A DNA stretch of 64,000 nucleotides from the NCBI RefSeq assembly GCF_003054225.1, contig NZ_QBKQ01000001.1, positions 434,001-498,000 of the forward strand, in the 5' to 3' direction. Each line of letters opens with the position of its first letter. Position 1 is the first letter of the stretch. Below the pieces are notes generated by a model that was given only the letters and a program-made list of their open reading frames with translations, was not told where the DNA came from and did not search any database. Positions 51,776-64,000 of the stretch are shown piece after piece. The position numbers and the translations under genes are program-made. Source of the DNA: Christiangramia gaetbulicola (GTDB taxonomy: Bacteria > Bacteroidota > Bacteroidia > Flavobacteriales > Flavobacteriaceae).

Positions 51776-53113
51776 CTATTCTGTTCTTTTCTCAAATTTC
51801 AATATTGCATTCTTGGGTTTCAGGGTAATGAGAGGTTTTATTTCAATTGGCGTGGTGACCTTTGAGATCTTATATTGAGACATTAGTTCGGTAATGGCAA
51901 TGATCATCTCGAACATGGCGAAATTGTTCCCTATGCATTTCCTGGGACCGGCACCAAAGGGAAAATATTGCGAAGAATACTTCCTGCTGTTTCCTTCAAA
52001 TCTCTCCGGTTTAAAATCCTCGGGGTCTTCCCAAAGATCTGGATGGCGATGAATTTCAAATAATGAGAACAACAAATTAGAACCTGGTTCAAAATTCTTT
52101 CCATCGAATTCATCTGCCTCTACATTCACGCGGTCTATAAAATAAGCCGGCGGATAAAGACGCATAGACTCTTCTATTACCTGCTGGGTAATTTCAGTTT
52201 TGGTCACAATCGCCATAAGATCATCATGCTCTTTATTAAGCGATGTGATCTCCTGAAATATCTTCTCCTGCCATTCTGGATTCCTGGCTAAAAGTTCACA
52301 GGTAAAAGTAAGCGCATTGGAGGTCGTCTCATGACCCGCAGTGAAAAGGATCAGGATCTCATCTATCAATTGCTCCTCATCCATAAAATTACCATCATCA
52401 TATTTCGACTCCAGCAACATATCCAGAAGATCATCGAATCTCTCCTGTGACTCTCTTCTTTCCTTTACAATGCCTTTAAGGATCTCTCTGGCTTCCGCGG
52501 TTAGTTCCAGGTAACTATCTATTTTCCCACTAGCCTTGAACCACCAACCTAAATATGGCTGCCTAAGTTCCTTTACCAGCATTTTCTGGGTCTCCTCTGT
52601 GATGAACTGAAGCCTGTTGATCTCTTCCTGGTTCGCCGCGCTGCTGAAAAGTGATTTCACCACGGTTTGAAAAGCAAGGTCATTAAAGATTGGAAATATG
52701 TCTATTTCCTTGCCAGGAGTGATCTTTTCATATTCCAGAAGTATTGCTTCTTTAATGGCATCGAGCAAATTGGCGAGTTGCTTTTTATGGAATGCCGGCT
52801 GAATAAGTTTACGCTGTTTCTTCCAGTGTTCGCCTTCTGAAGTTAGTAAACCTTCTCCAACGTATTTCACGAGATCCTTGGTCTGTATCTCTGACTTAAC
52901 AAAATTCTTCTGGTTCTTTTGAAGAGCATATTCCAAAAGACCTGCATCCCTTGAAAATATAACCGATTTACTGAAGCCGATATTCAGTCGGAAAGTATCT
53001 CCTTTTTCCTCGAAATTCCGGGAATGAAAAGGCAACGGATTCTTAAGAATATTAGCGGAATGCTTTAGAAATTTCAATAGGGAAACTTCAGGGATATTTG
53101 TATTCTTACTCAT
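51776..53113 (-). CDS. Cytochrome P450
   Basis: A 445-residue P450 monooxygenase without a membrane anchor. The oxygen-activating I-helix motif is FTAGHETTS, the EESMRLYPP carries the ExxR salt bridge, and the haem loop FPFGAGPRKCIGNNFAM includes the axial Cys393. It needs a ferredoxin/reductase or similar redox partner, and none is encoded beside it. The substrate cannot be inferred; class-level similarity is to bacterial CYP102/CYP4-like fatty-acid or terpenoid hydroxylases. It is flanked by the ScyD-like gene and by the GIY-YIG repeat element. Confidence 0.92.
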   Translation of the reverse strand: MSKNTNIPEVSLLKFLKHSANILKNPLPFHSRNFEEKGDTFRLNIGFSKSVIFSRDAGLLEYALQKNQKNFVKSEIQTKDLVKYVGEGLLTSEGEHWKKQRKLIQPAFHKKQLANLLDAIKEAILLEYEKITPGKEIDIFPIFNDLAFQTVVKSLFSSAANQEEINRLQFITEETQKMLVKELRQPYLGWWFKASGKIDSYLELTAEAREILKGIVKERRESQERFDDLLDMLLESKYDDGNFMDEEQLIDEILILFTAGHETTSNALTFTCELLARNPEWQEKIFQEITSLNKEHDDLMAIVTKTEITQQVIEESMRLYPPAYFIDRVNVEADEFDGKNFEPGSNLLFSLFEIHRHPDLWEDPEDFKPERFEGNSRKYSSQYFPFGAGPRKCIGNNFAMFEMIIAITELMSQYKISKVTTPIEIKPLITLKPKNAILKFEKRTE

Positions 53114-53235
53114 GTTGCTTTTTCTTTTTTATTCTGTATTCCTGGGCTTAATACCGATGGTCTTTGACATAAAAATTATTCAGAAATCAAAATCTGTATT
53201 TTAAATAAATATCTCAATTCTCAAAACTAACCATT

Positions 53236-53260
53236 GTCACACTGAGCGCAGTCGAAGTGT
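53236..53260 (-). repeat. Hairpin repeat R1, downstream of the GIY-YIG gene
   Basis: On the minus strand this reads ACACTTCGACTGCGCTCAGTGT. It has the 16-nt core CTTCGACTGCGCTCAG (53257-53242) shared with R2 and R3. Outer arms ACACT/AGTGT give five base pairs. It directly abuts the TAG stop of the GIY-YIG gene and is inverted relative to R2 and R3. Confidence 0.85.
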
Positions 53261-53578
53261 CTATTTATCTGGCTTGTATTTATAATGGGTAGCATTTCTG
53301 CATTCTGATAAAATCTTTAATCTATCAAAATCACCATTGATCAATGCTTCTTTCTTGGATCTGGACCATCCTTTTAACTTCTTTTCAAAATATATAGCCT
53401 GCAATACATCATTGAATTCCTGACTAAATTTTAATTCAATGGGTCTCCGCTGGAATGTATAACATTCTTTATTAATTCCTCTGAGATGCTCCCACACTCT
53501 TCTTTCCAAATCATTGGTTATTCCCACGTAGTAGGAATTGTCTGAGCATTCAAGAACATATACAAAATAAAAAAACAT
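53261..53578 (-). CDS. GIY-YIG domain nuclease, small standalone (YhbQ/UPF0213-like)
   Basis: A 105-residue single-domain endonuclease-like protein. The core motifs are FVYVLECSDNSYYVGIT, where FVY and YVG (residues 17-19) replace GIY and YIG; ERRVWEH with Arg26; and a downstream IYFEKKLKGWSRSKK with Glu65, the expected metal ligand. No DNA-binding domain is attached. Its stop codon touches repeat R1, and repeat R2 begins 14 bp before its ATG, so the gene is bracketed by inverted hairpin repeats; R3 lies 58 bp beyond R2. Such genes are common in Flavobacteriaceae with uncertain function; the repeat context suggests that it may act on, or be mobilised with, these repeats. Confidence 0.85.
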   Translation of the reverse strand: MFFYFVYVLECSDNSYYVGITNDLERRVWEHLRGINKECYTFQRRPIELKFSQEFNDVLQAIYFEKKLKGWSRSKKEALINGDFDRLKILSECRNATHYKYKPDK

Positions 53579-53592
53579 ACTCCGCTATTATG

Positions 53593-53612
53593 GGCTTCGA
53601 CTGCGCTCAGCC
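53593..53612 (+). repeat. Hairpin repeat R2, upstream of the GIY-YIG gene
   Basis: Core CTTCGACTGCGCTCAG (53595-53610) with outer arms GGCT/AGCC (four base pairs). Compared with R1, two of the arm pairs change together (A-T to G-C and C-G to G-C), so pairing is kept. It is inverted relative to R1. Confidence 0.85.
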
Positions 53613-53669
53613 GGACATCCCTTTCAAATCAAACTCCAAATTGTGCCTGGATTTTTTTTCAATTTAAAG

Positions 53670-53685
53670 CTTCGACTGCGCTCAG
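53670..53685 (+). repeat. Hairpin repeat R3 (solo copy)
   Basis: The identical 16-nt core again, in the same orientation as R2, 75 bp downstream. Its arms (GCT/AGC) are shorter, and it is not next to a gene end. A GACA sequence follows 3-4 nt after the core in R2 and R3, and shortly after the core in R1. Confidence 0.8.
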
Positions 53686-53817
53686 CCTGACATTTTCTAA
53701 GCGATGAATTCCGCGAATAGTTTCCATCAAAATTCCCGATGATAATATCATTGAAATCCTGAAACATGGCCAGTCCAAAATTTAGGATACTAATCGTAAT
53801 CTCTCCAGAAACTAAAC

Positions 53818-54843
53818 TTAAAACAGTCCTCCCTGGGTGCTACCTTTGATCCTGCCAAGATGCTTATAGGCATGTTCGGTTACTTCCCTACCTCGAGGAG
53901 TTCTATAAATAAATCCTTGCTGAATAAGGAATGGTTCATACACCTCCTCGATGGTTTCGGCACTTTCGCTTACAGCGGTGGCCAGAGTAGTAATACCAAC
54001 CGGTCCTCCCTTGAATTTATCTATGATCGTAGCCAGGATCTTATTATCCATTTCATCAAGACCATGCGCGTCCACATTCAGAGCCTTTAGTCCAAACCTG
54101 GCAATTTCGATATCTATTTTTCCATTTCCCTTTATCTGAGCGAAATCACGAACTCTCCTTAAAAGCGCATTGGCAATTCTGGGAGTACCACGGCTTCTAC
54201 CGGCAATTTCGATTGCCGCATCCTGGGTAATTGGAACTTTTAGAATATCTGAACTACGCTCCACAATTCCTGATAGCAATTCGGTTGTATAATATTGCAG
54301 CCTGCTGGAGATACCAAACCTCGCCCTCATAGGAGCTGTTAGGAGTCCAGACCTGGTAGTTGCACCTATCAGTGTGAAAGGATTCAAATTGATCTGTACC
54401 GTACGCGCATTTGGCCCGGTTTCGATCATAATGTCTATACGGTAATCTTCCATAGCAGAATACAGGTACTCCTCTACGATGGGGCTTAATCTATGTATCT
54501 CGTCTATAAAAAGTATATCTCTCTCGTCCAGGTTGGTCAAAAGACCGGCAAGATCTCCTGGTTTATCCAGAACGGGACCCGAAGTGATCTTGATGCCGAC
54601 ATTAAGTTCATTGGCCAAAATATGTGCTAATGTAGTTTTACCTAATCCCGGAGGGCCATGAAACAAAGTATGATCCAGCGCCTCTCCCCTTAGGTTAGCC
54701 GCCTGTACGAATACCTGAAGATTTTCAAGGACCTGCTCCTGCCCCGCAAAGTCATCAAAACTAAGCGGTCTTAAAGCTCTTTCTATATCAAATTCTTCCG
54801 GAGAAAAACTATCTCCACTGGCATCAAGGTTTTCGTTCATCAT
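53818..54843 (-). CDS. ruvB: Holliday junction branch-migration ATPase RuvB
   Basis: A 341-residue AAA+ motor that drives branch migration with RuvA. It has Walker [13 protein letters not shown], Walker [11 protein letters not shown], sensor-type [21 protein letters not shown], arginine-finger region [18 protein letters not shown], and the C-terminal winged helix with [16 protein letters not shown]. The family start [14 protein letters not shown] is present. A second ATG one codon in is equally possible. It is on the same strand as ruvA but 7 kb away. Confidence 0.96.
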
Positions 54844-62521: not shown

Positions 62522-64000
62522 TTAAGCTTCGGTTGTATTTCTAACTTTTGTCTGGTACATCACATTTGGTTTTGTACCTACATACTCAAGCAGATGATAC
62601 ATCCTGTCATCATTTTTCTTTTCAAGAATTTTTGATTCCTTGTCGTTTACATCTCCAAAGACCATCGCTCCTTTATCACAAGCTGCAGAACAGGCAGTAT
62701 GGAATTCACCATCCTTGATCGTTCTACCTTCACGCTTAGCATCAAGGATCGTTTTCTGAGTCTTCTGGATACACATAGAACATTTTTCCATAACCCCTCT
62801 TGAACGTACAGTAACATCTGGGTTAAGTACCATTCTTCCAAGGTCATTGTTCAAGTGGTAATCGAATTCATCGTTCTGTGCATAGTTGAACCAGTTGAAA
62901 CGACGAACTTTGTAAGGACAGTTGTTAGCACAATATCTCGTACCAACACATCTGTTATAGATCATCTGGTTTTGTCCCTGTCTACCGTGTGAAGTTGCCG
63001 CTACAGGACATACAGTTTCACAAGGCGCATGGTTACAATGCTGACACATTACAGGCTGGAATACAACCTGAGGATTGTCTGCAGGCTCTTCTAACTCTCC
63101 AAATTCTGAAAGAGAGCTTCCAAGACCACCAATATTTTCTTTTTTCTCAAGATCGTTCGTGAAGGTATCTTCAGAAGAGAAATAACGGTCTATACGCAAC
63201 CAGTGCATATCTCTAGATTTTCTCACTTCATCTTTACCTACTACAGGAACGTTATTTTCTGAATGACAAGCGATCACACAAGCTCCACAACCAGTACAGG
63301 CGTTAAGGTCTATACTTAAGTTGAAGTGTGGCCCGGTAGTCCTGTCGAAGCTTTCCCAGATATCAACCTCTGGAGAAGTTACAGGAGTTTCCTGGTGATC
63401 TAATGAAACTTCAGGAGTAGAGTTCCAGACATGAGCGTCTTTTGTATTAAATACCTCAAGGCTTGTTTCCTTGATGATATCACCTCTACCCATTAAGGTA
63501 TTATGAAGCTGAACACATGCAAATTCATGCACTCCAGCAACCTTTTCAATTTTTACTTTCTGTACCGAGCTAAAGTTCTTATACAAAGGATAAGCATTTA
63601 CCCCTGTTTGCATTTCTTCCTGAACTCCAGCCTTTCTACCATAACCAAGCGCAAGACCAACAGATCCTTTAGCCTGACCAGGCATAATGTAAACCGGTAC
63701 ACTCTTAACTACAGTATCACCAACAGTTAGATTCACATAACTTCCGTTAAGCCCACCATTAGCAACATTCTCATTTTCCAATCCTAGCTCTTCAGCATCG
63801 GCTTTAGAAACTGTTACGTAGTTATCCCAGCTCGCTCTTGTAAGCGGATCTGGCATTTCCTGCAACCATGGGTTATTAGCCTGCTGGCCGTCACCAATTG
63901 CAGTGTTGGTATAAAGAGTTAATTCATAACCTTCACCTTCCAGCTCATCCATATTGAATGAAATTGAAGAAGAGCTTGAATTATTAGAAGCTGGCAGAGC
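62522..64000 (-). CDS. actB: Alternative complex III subunit ActB (partial, N-terminal part beyond window)
   Basis: The open frame continues past position 64000 without a stop, so at least 492 residues are the C-terminal part of a larger protein. ActB fuses a molybdopterin-oxidoreductase-like domain to a ferredoxin-type tail. The tail is visible in full with its four Fe-S cluster motifs: NACTGCGACVIACH, CQHCNHAPCETVCP, CVGTRYCANNCPYKVRR and CSMCIQKTQ. Upstream of the first Met in the window (63952) the same frame reads a Ser/Asn-rich linker. It transfers electrons within the complex. The gene start, and any actA, lie outside. Confidence 0.92.
   Translation of the reverse strand, partial: ALPASNNSSSSSISFNMDELEGEGYELTLYTNTAIGDGQQANNPWLQEMPDPLTRASWDNYVTVSKADAEELGLENENVANGGLNGSYVNLTVGDTVVKSVPVYIMPGQAKGSVGLALGYGRKAGVQEEMQTGVNAYPLYKNFSSVQKVKIEKVAGVHEFACVQLHNTLMGRGDIIKETSLEVFNTKDAHVWNSTPEVSLDHQETPVTSPEVDIWESFDRTTGPHFNLSIDLNACTGCGACVIACHSENNVPVVGKDEVRKSRDMHWLRIDRYFSSEDTFTNDLEKKENIGGLGSSLSEFGELEEPADNPQVVFQPVMCQHCNHAPCETVCPVAATSHGRQGQNQMIYNRCVGTRYCANNCPYKVRRFNWFNYAQNDEFDYHLNNDLGRMVLNPDVTVRSRGVMEKCSMCIQKTQKTILDAKREGRTIKDGEFHTACSAACDKGAMVFGDVNDKESKILEKKNDDRMYHLLEYVGTKPNVMYQTKVRNTTEA

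Follow-up and report, generated by a model that had tools for sequence, protein, structure and literature searches.

Probable partnership between a small GIY-YIG nuclease and TGTCA-tagged hairpin repeats in Christiangramia gaetbulicola

In the marine bacterium Christiangramia gaetbulicola, the gene for a small GIY-YIG protein, a probable DNA-cutting nuclease, lies between two inverted copies of a short hairpin repeat, each carrying an unpaired tag, TGTCA or a one-letter variant of it, that faces away from the gene. The enzyme and the tagged hairpins are very probably partners, a reading well supported by their linkage, their orientation, covariation in the hairpin stem, the matching of hairpin class to protein clade, the conservation of catalytic residues, and an association with copy number. 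It also appears fairly probable that the CGTC/TGTCA REPs have their dedicated enzymes in small GIY-YIG nucleases, working like the RAYT/REPIN systems with an unrelated enzyme. Judged from sequence, the likeliest reading is that the enzyme would act on hairpin DNA and drive its spread; hairpin binding, the cut site, and cutting as the driver of spread are steps that we infer.

The window gene and its framing hairpins

The window, a 64,000-nucleotide stretch of contig NZ_QBKQ01000001.1, comes from a genome of 3.64 Mb and contains the features listed in Table 1. The exact 16-mer CTTCGACTGCGCTCAG occurs there three times, at 53242-53257 (-), 53595-53610 (+), and 53670-53685 (+); at up to three mismatches, 0.22 copies are expected, and three or more copies arose in none of 100 shuffles. 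The hairpins R1 and R2 frame the ORF as inverted copies, as the earlier note had described, with their tags outward, and the note's placement of R1 against the stop codon and of R2 before the ATG holds. Its inventory of repeats was right for these two and overlooked the third copy, R3, which is also found in a close relative (G001). Read along the gene, the elements follow one another as R3>, R2>, gene, <R1. R1 reads TGTC-ACACT-GAGCGCAGTCGA-AGTGT, and R2 reads TGTCC-GGCT-GAGCGCAGTCGA-AGCC, with TGTCC for TGTCA as its single tag change. Under a strict rule (GTCA plus a 4-bp arm), R1 alone passes in the window because the tag of R2 has changed and R3 has lost its outermost pair. Another GTCA-tagged hairpin-like match, at 63227-63267 (-), may be due to chance.

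Table 1. Features in and around the hairpin-framed unit (window coordinates)
Feature	Position	Strand	Description
Cytochrome P450 gene	51776..53113	-	Other neighbor; ORF, named by the earlier note and by sequence recognition, without family search
R1	53235..53260	+	TGTCA-tagged hairpin, arms ACACT/AGTGT, core GAGCGCAGTCGA; bounds the unit downstream with an outward tag and abuts stop codon
Small GIY-YIG nuclease gene	53261..53578	-	ORF of 105 aa; Pfam PF01541, E 3.5e-18
R2	53593..53617	-	Tagged hairpin, arms GGCT/AGCC, tag altered to TGTCC and facing outward; bounds the unit upstream, 14 bp from ATG
R3	53668..53692	-	Third copy, tag TGTCA, outermost stem pair gone (GGCT/AGCT); oriented as R2
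ruvB	53818..54843	-	Neighbor; ORF, named by sequence recognition and the earlier note, without family search

Across the relatives of the window gene (the best 80 of 545 found in the scan), 217 core matches comprising 199 distinct 36-mers yield the consensus TGTCA, four bases, GAGCGCAGTCGA, and the four partner bases, usually followed by C or T. Each letter of the tag is conserved in 173-195 of the 199 copies. Stem pairs 1, 2, 3, and 4 are Watson-Crick in 195, 192, 186, and 176 of the 199, versus 128, 103, 61, and 82 expected from independent columns, and all four pair types occur at position 3; at pairs 5-7, the Watson-Crick count is not above expectation. This covariation bears out the compensatory changes that had been proposed from the window copies. 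Pairing is maintained while letters vary in pairs 1-4 only, and the paired part therefore consists of four bases. Inside it, the GA...GA of the core could presumably adopt sheared pairing, with a small loop of the GNA type. The loop in the 30 host copies examined is GCA, GTA, GAA, or GGA, ACA and TCA each being seen a single time, a variation that is only suggestive of a GNA-type loop because the copies were found with the GCA form at up to two mismatches. Window-class hairpins located after ruvB in two congeners (L136 of G014 and L139 of G007) carry an insertion in the core that partly forms a nested stem, as though the inner loop were free to expand with the tag, arms, and GA ends unchanged.

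Under DNA energy rules, the isolated class-1 hairpin folds with -2.1 and -2.7 kcal/mol (z 0.2-0.4), a weak stability by which a stable isolated hairpin was rejected for this class; a third sequence folded, of the class S3 design, is stable (z -3.9). An Rfam scan of 53000-53900 returned nothing above the gathering score (best E 0.53), and a structured RNA family at the locus was rejected.

That the hairpins act in RNA, as signals for terminating or processing the nuclease mRNA, with the protein regulating or processing transcripts, is very unlikely. Among the A-set loci that have a downstream hairpin, about half do have it starting no more than ~10 bp from the stop codon, and many REPs are thought to be transcribed, according to the accessible part of PMC3733652. 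Against a role in RNA, the tag is unpaired and faces outward on both sides, the upstream side included, and no Rfam family reaches its gathering score. In addition, a GNA loop and sheared G.A pairs, both possible in the core, are DNA-like features, and GIY-YIG enzymes, to our knowledge, act on DNA as a rule.

The nearest named relative of the window gene, among the best 80 of 545, is that of Christiangramia aestuarii (91% identity). Residues Y7, Y17, G19, R27, H31, and E65, which we take to be the GIY-YIG catalytic set, are retained in 75-77 of 77 aligned homologues. The fold predicted with an alignment of 43 sequences (L134, which has a stop codon, was left out) has a pLDDT of 90.3 and is nearest to UPF0213 structures, with Slx1 next (Foldseek ranks 3-12, E 0.0035-0.043). 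A PDB profile search at E <=0.1 matched solely the UPF0213 proteins BH0048 (1zg2, 3.8e-17) and EF2693 (1ywl, 3.9e-14). By its GIY-YIG fold and catalytic residues, the window protein is classed as a UPF0213-like GIY-YIG nuclease; it has the fold and size of UPF0213 proteins, for which the literature searched mentions no repeat partner. Unlike the window gene, three homologues from the phage collection have no framing hairpins (0/3 with an outward GTCA hairpin within 250 bp). Slx1, a structure-selective nuclease, similarly has a GIY-YIG fold and acts on branched DNA; it is eukaryotic, larger, and works with Slx4, and we know of no repeat partner for it. The window protein found no family in an NCBIfam search, and PADLOC and PHROGs searches (E 0.001) gave no match, that is, no anti-phage defense or phage family. 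The phage collection holds 20 records that match it, none covering more than 80% of the query, and carriage by phage was rejected.

Linkage, orientation, and class matching among relatives

The core is linked to relatives of the window gene across genera, in the orientation that the earlier note had stated. In 77 of the 80 relatives, a core 10-mer lies no farther than 200 bp from the gene; beyond 400 bp, in about 12 times more DNA, one is present in 13 of the 80. The relatives are non-independent samples, a caveat on these and the other locus counts. Core copies occur upstream in 68 loci and downstream in 67, with 58 loci having both; in these two-sided loci the nearest pair is outward in 50 of 58, with the other orders seen 6 and 2 times. 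The arms differ between the two sides, CACT being found in 2/58 upstream versus 34/57 downstream (Fisher 1e-11), as for distinct left and right ends.

The hairpin design can also be followed without reference to its sequence. In the sequence-blind search, the pattern was GTCA, 4 bases, GA, 5-45 bases, GA, and 4 partners, and it was applied to sets of 79, 30, 30, and 30 loci; L112, which has a broken frame, was dropped from the 80 loci for this search as well as for the arm/spacing and class counts and the site clustering. Within 250 bp of the gene (83 kb), 281 outward and 119 inward matches were found, compared with 63 in the far flank (536 kb). Set by set, there are 143, 31, 45, and 62 outward matches, 32, 15, 31, and 41 inward matches, and, in much more DNA, 26, 15, 7, and 15 far matches, and none of 23 permuted tags exceeds two outward matches per set. 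At least one outward match is present in 69/79, 15/30, 23/30, and 28/30 loci, and matches on both sides in 46/79, 7/30, 16/30, and 20/30; the strict rule finds no outward hairpin in the remaining 10/79, 15/30, 7/30, and 2/30. For the A set, the density is 3.70 outward matches per kb near the gene versus 0.071 per kb far from it (both orientations). Eight other GIY-YIG genes of the host, some longer and multi-domain, show no outward GTCA hairpin within 250 bp (0/8); with a looser tag ([GA]TC[AC]), four of these control genes (L017-L020) give a one-sided outward match and none a two-sided one.

Hairpin class follows protein subfamily. By subfamily, the cores are GAGCGNAGTCGA, GAGCYTGTCGA, and GAGTG...TATCGA, the last of which includes an inner hairpin that varies; a further, mixed group has arms resembling TTTC or TTCC. 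When hairpin class is mapped onto a tree of 74 proteins, it changes 3 times, the minimum for four classes, versus 31-41 times in 300 shuffles, where the labels S1-S4 were drawn up after inspecting the flanks, S4 is loosely defined, and the tree has few columns and many unresolved forks. The rows of the tree take every fourth A locus and exclude loci with an unlabelled hairpin class or a peptide of <60 residues. With class S4 omitted (55 proteins), 2 changes are counted versus at least 16 in shuffles. The split of the first three classes arises within loci retrieved by one query, and in 71 of the 73 loci labelled on both sides, the two labels agree.

The host genome alone contains three GIY-YIG genes of different subfamilies, framed by three hairpin classes. 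The gene at C1:649611 is framed by GTCA-NNN-TGAACTNGTTTCA, of which the genome has 43 tagged copies, and that at C1:85764 (locus L016) by TGAGCYTGTCGA, with 14 core copies; the latter locus fails the strict rule because its tags have decayed to TGTTG. A short tandem repeat with a GACGTTA unit is seen near this paralogous GIY-YIG unit, at about 1220-1280 of L016.

These comparisons bear on a passive neighborhood, in which an unrelated factor spreads the hairpins and they gather in gaps that also house a dispensable gene. REP-like copies do cluster, and inward copies near the gene are common too, as the inward total above and a Neisseria locus illustrate. The class-clade matching, the outward orientation and tight spacing, the absence of outward GTCA hairpins from all eight other host GIY-YIG genes, and the near versus far density in the A set all speak against passive gathering, which is disfavored and in our estimation scarcely credible.

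Copy number and residence within the genus

The over-representation of the 16-mer in the genome, a check that had been called for, was found: 13 exact copies are present versus 0 in a reversed control, and a 15-mer at up to two mismatches has 34 sites versus 3 in the control. Among 24 congeners, the six gene-bearing genomes contain 12, 3, 46, 1, 5, and 14 exact tagged core copies, more than the 18 without the gene (0-9, mean 1.9; p 0.004). The sister core GAGCGGAGTCGA has 13, 13, 28, and 2 copies in the four genomes with the sister gene, one of which carries an in-frame stop, and 0-11 copies in the other 20 (p 0.001). Neither core occurs in exact form in the six congeners that lack any match to the family; one of them, G018, retains one decayed copy. 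Three genomes without a close gene (G002, G003, and G021) have 7, 9, and 7 core copies all the same. In G008, the window-type gene is framed by sister core copies, and one core letter therefore does not define specificity.

The gene itself is sedentary by comparison with its repeats. A ruvB homologue adjoins the small GIY-YIG gene in 28 of the 80 relatives, in several genera, and a P450 homologue in 14 of the 80, and the 68 loci with long enough flanks fall into 18 both-flank site clusters, the largest with 24 and 11 members. The comparison of ruvB intervals within the genus that had been suggested did reveal presence and absence: among the 23 congeners with the locus obtained, the interval after ruvB contains an intact gene in 6, a remnant in 1 (G005), and no GIY-YIG gene in 16. 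From the ruvB adjacency, the few site clusters, and the presence/absence within the genus, it follows that the gene has long been resident and is polymorphic for presence or absence at the ruvB site, and the gene-less hairpin is the dispersed item. RAYT genes behave similarly in their gain and loss as residents. The REP/RAYT-like character claimed in the earlier note accordingly stands as an arrangement, given the over-representation, linkage, and orientation and the lack of a detected Y1 enzyme, and is not supported as a recently mobile cassette of ~380 bp, given the ruvB adjacency and the 18 site clusters. As a side observation, ruvB, a Holliday-junction motor gene, recurs as the neighbor in 28 of the loci L055-L133, with the P450 gene intervening in some.

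Five host hairpin sites could be aligned with G001 and/or G018; the hairpin is absent there at three, where the flanks are too diverged for a junction or target duplication to be read, and shared at two (one decayed). Opposite copies within 50 bp, judged by eye, are arranged head-to-head 6 times and tail-to-tail once for the host class TGAACT; for class 1, the counts are 5 and 0 in G007 and 0 and 1 in G014. In G012 (C1:1374364-1375704, L171/L184), the sister gene and its hairpins are present in three tandem copies about 520 bp apart; these near-identical copies lie close together and may therefore be tandem duplications.

A free-standing homing endonuclease, whose gene would enter cut sites through copying in double-strand-break repair and whose targets or scars would be the hairpins, is highly improbable. 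GIY-YIG is a classic homing-nuclease domain, and the presence/absence at the ruvB site within the genus fits such a gene. It is the gene-less hairpins, however, that are dispersed, no single target gene is seen, and hairpins frame the gene in several unrelated contexts.

A cognate pair kept for upkeep, in which a host nuclease resolves or trims repeat hairpins and cruciforms and the framing copies are its own sensing or control sites, is unlikely. It draws on the old residence beside ruvB, on the fold nearest to UPF0213 and then to the branched-DNA nuclease Slx1, and on the host genome having one gene per hairpin class. On the other side, the congeners without the family show no exact hairpin copies and no accumulation of them, and the distinct left and right arms and head-to-head dimers resemble the ends of an element.

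Known repeat systems and a proposed mechanism

The arrangement is reminiscent of the RAYT (TnpA-REP)/REPIN "REPtrons." Similar to these, short tagged hairpins lie outward around an enzyme gene, inverted relative to each other, gene-less head-to-head dimers occur elsewhere, and enzyme clade is matched to hairpin class. The main differences are the enzyme, a GIY-YIG protein of ~100 residues here and a Y1 HUH transposase there, and the tag, TGTCA/CGTCA here and GTAG there. A search of the whole host genome with PF01797 (Y1 HUH) at E 0.001 gave no match, and a Y1 (RAYT) transposase was rejected as the mobilizer. With neither the Y1 enzyme nor the GTAG tag found where both were looked for, the system would work like RAYT/REPIN but is not a member of that family.

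A second comparison is with the CGTC-tagged REPs. In the accessible part of PMC3733652, these are described as hairpins with a CGTC or TGTC tag, mostly in head-to-head dimers, reported in 2013 from five phyla and including Neisseria dRS3 and Rickettsia RPE-4/6; A. lipoferum, S. meliloti, and G. forsetii are among the positive species named. The same text states that they "apparently lack a dedicated transposase," are not associated with transposase genes, and leaves their mobilizer open. Set against that written description, proteobacterial hairpins beside GIY-YIG genes fit, with a CGTCA tag, an 8-9 bp stem, and a CCA end, most often ATCCA. The window class shares the unpaired tag at one end (TGTCA) and the predominance of head-to-head dimers; where the description has an 8-9 bp stem, a 4-5 nt loop, and a CCA tail, it has four Watson-Crick pairs, a GA...GA core, and a tail of mostly C/T and then T/A/C.

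In a search of open PMC full text, with preprints and most subscription journals outside its scope, no paper linking GIY-YIG with REPs was found among the matches listed. The words Neisseria, dRS3, and GIY do not occur in PMC8049555, and the accessible parts of PMC12306157 and PMC6006769 name no enzyme for CGTC REPs. Searched as a literal string, the core gave matches that, among those listed, have titles suggesting unrelated primers.

Beyond the Bacteroidota, matching records in a plasmid collection numbered 33, of which 18 were fetched; Spirosoma (Bacteroidota) was left out, giving 17 loci, several of which look near-orthologous (L285/L291/L292 and L277/L288). An outward GTCA hairpin is present on at least one side in 13, of which two (L279 and L289) look like chance matches, and on both sides in 11, all proteobacterial; with the best permuted tag, 5 loci have an outward match on at least one side. 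In total, 25 outward, 13 inward, and 41 far GTCA matches are counted. The two-sided loci are from Rhizobium, Shinella (3), Neorhizobium, Sphingobium (3, near-orthologues), Azospirillum, Aeromonas, and Neisseria; two-sided framing is lacking in six of the 17, the cyanobacterial one among them. The copies nearest to the gene in the Azospirillum and Neisseria loci are inward, with the outward copies farther out.

As a working model of the favored partnership, the small GIY-YIG protein would serve the TGTCA/CGTC-tagged hairpin family, its own gene being framed by two inverted, outward-tagged copies, and would extend its action in trans to gene-less copies elsewhere, a role ascribed to RAYT transposases at GTAG REPs. 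The hairpin may arise on single-stranded DNA, for instance on the lagging strand, or as a cruciform. A UPF0213/Slx1-like structure-selective nuclease would then recognize the tag, the paired 4-bp arm (with its letters free), and the class-specific core, and would place a nick at or near the tag. Host repair might copy or re-insert the segment between two outward tags, yielding head-to-head dimers.

More tentatively, these loci may represent a phylum-crossing class of minimal mobile element, composed of a stand-alone GIY-YIG nuclease with paired TGTCA/CGTCA hairpins as ends, whose enzyme of ~100 residues would cut without a covalent protein-DNA step and from which CGTC REPs could derive, among them Neisseria dRS3 and the abundant GTCATTCC-type repeats of proteobacteria. 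The enzyme proposed here would fill the place of the dedicated transposase that, according to the accessible part of PMC3733652, CGTC REPs have been said since 2013 to lack. Matched enzyme-hairpin pairs of several classes are offered, three of them within one genome, and specificity is therefore testable by swapping. If true, the proposal would suggest a function for many small GIY-YIG proteins that are named by domain only.

In Planktothrix agardhii plasmid p1 (L275), the GIY-YIG gene has an MmeI-type restriction gene on one side and the DISARM gene drmA on the other, and the surrounding GTCATTCTGAG repeats escape the strict hairpin rule. In Azospirillum lipoferum 4B plasmid AZO_p3 (L280, about 1850-2450), the GIY-YIG gene and its tagged hairpins lie between sufB and sufC, normally a tight operon.
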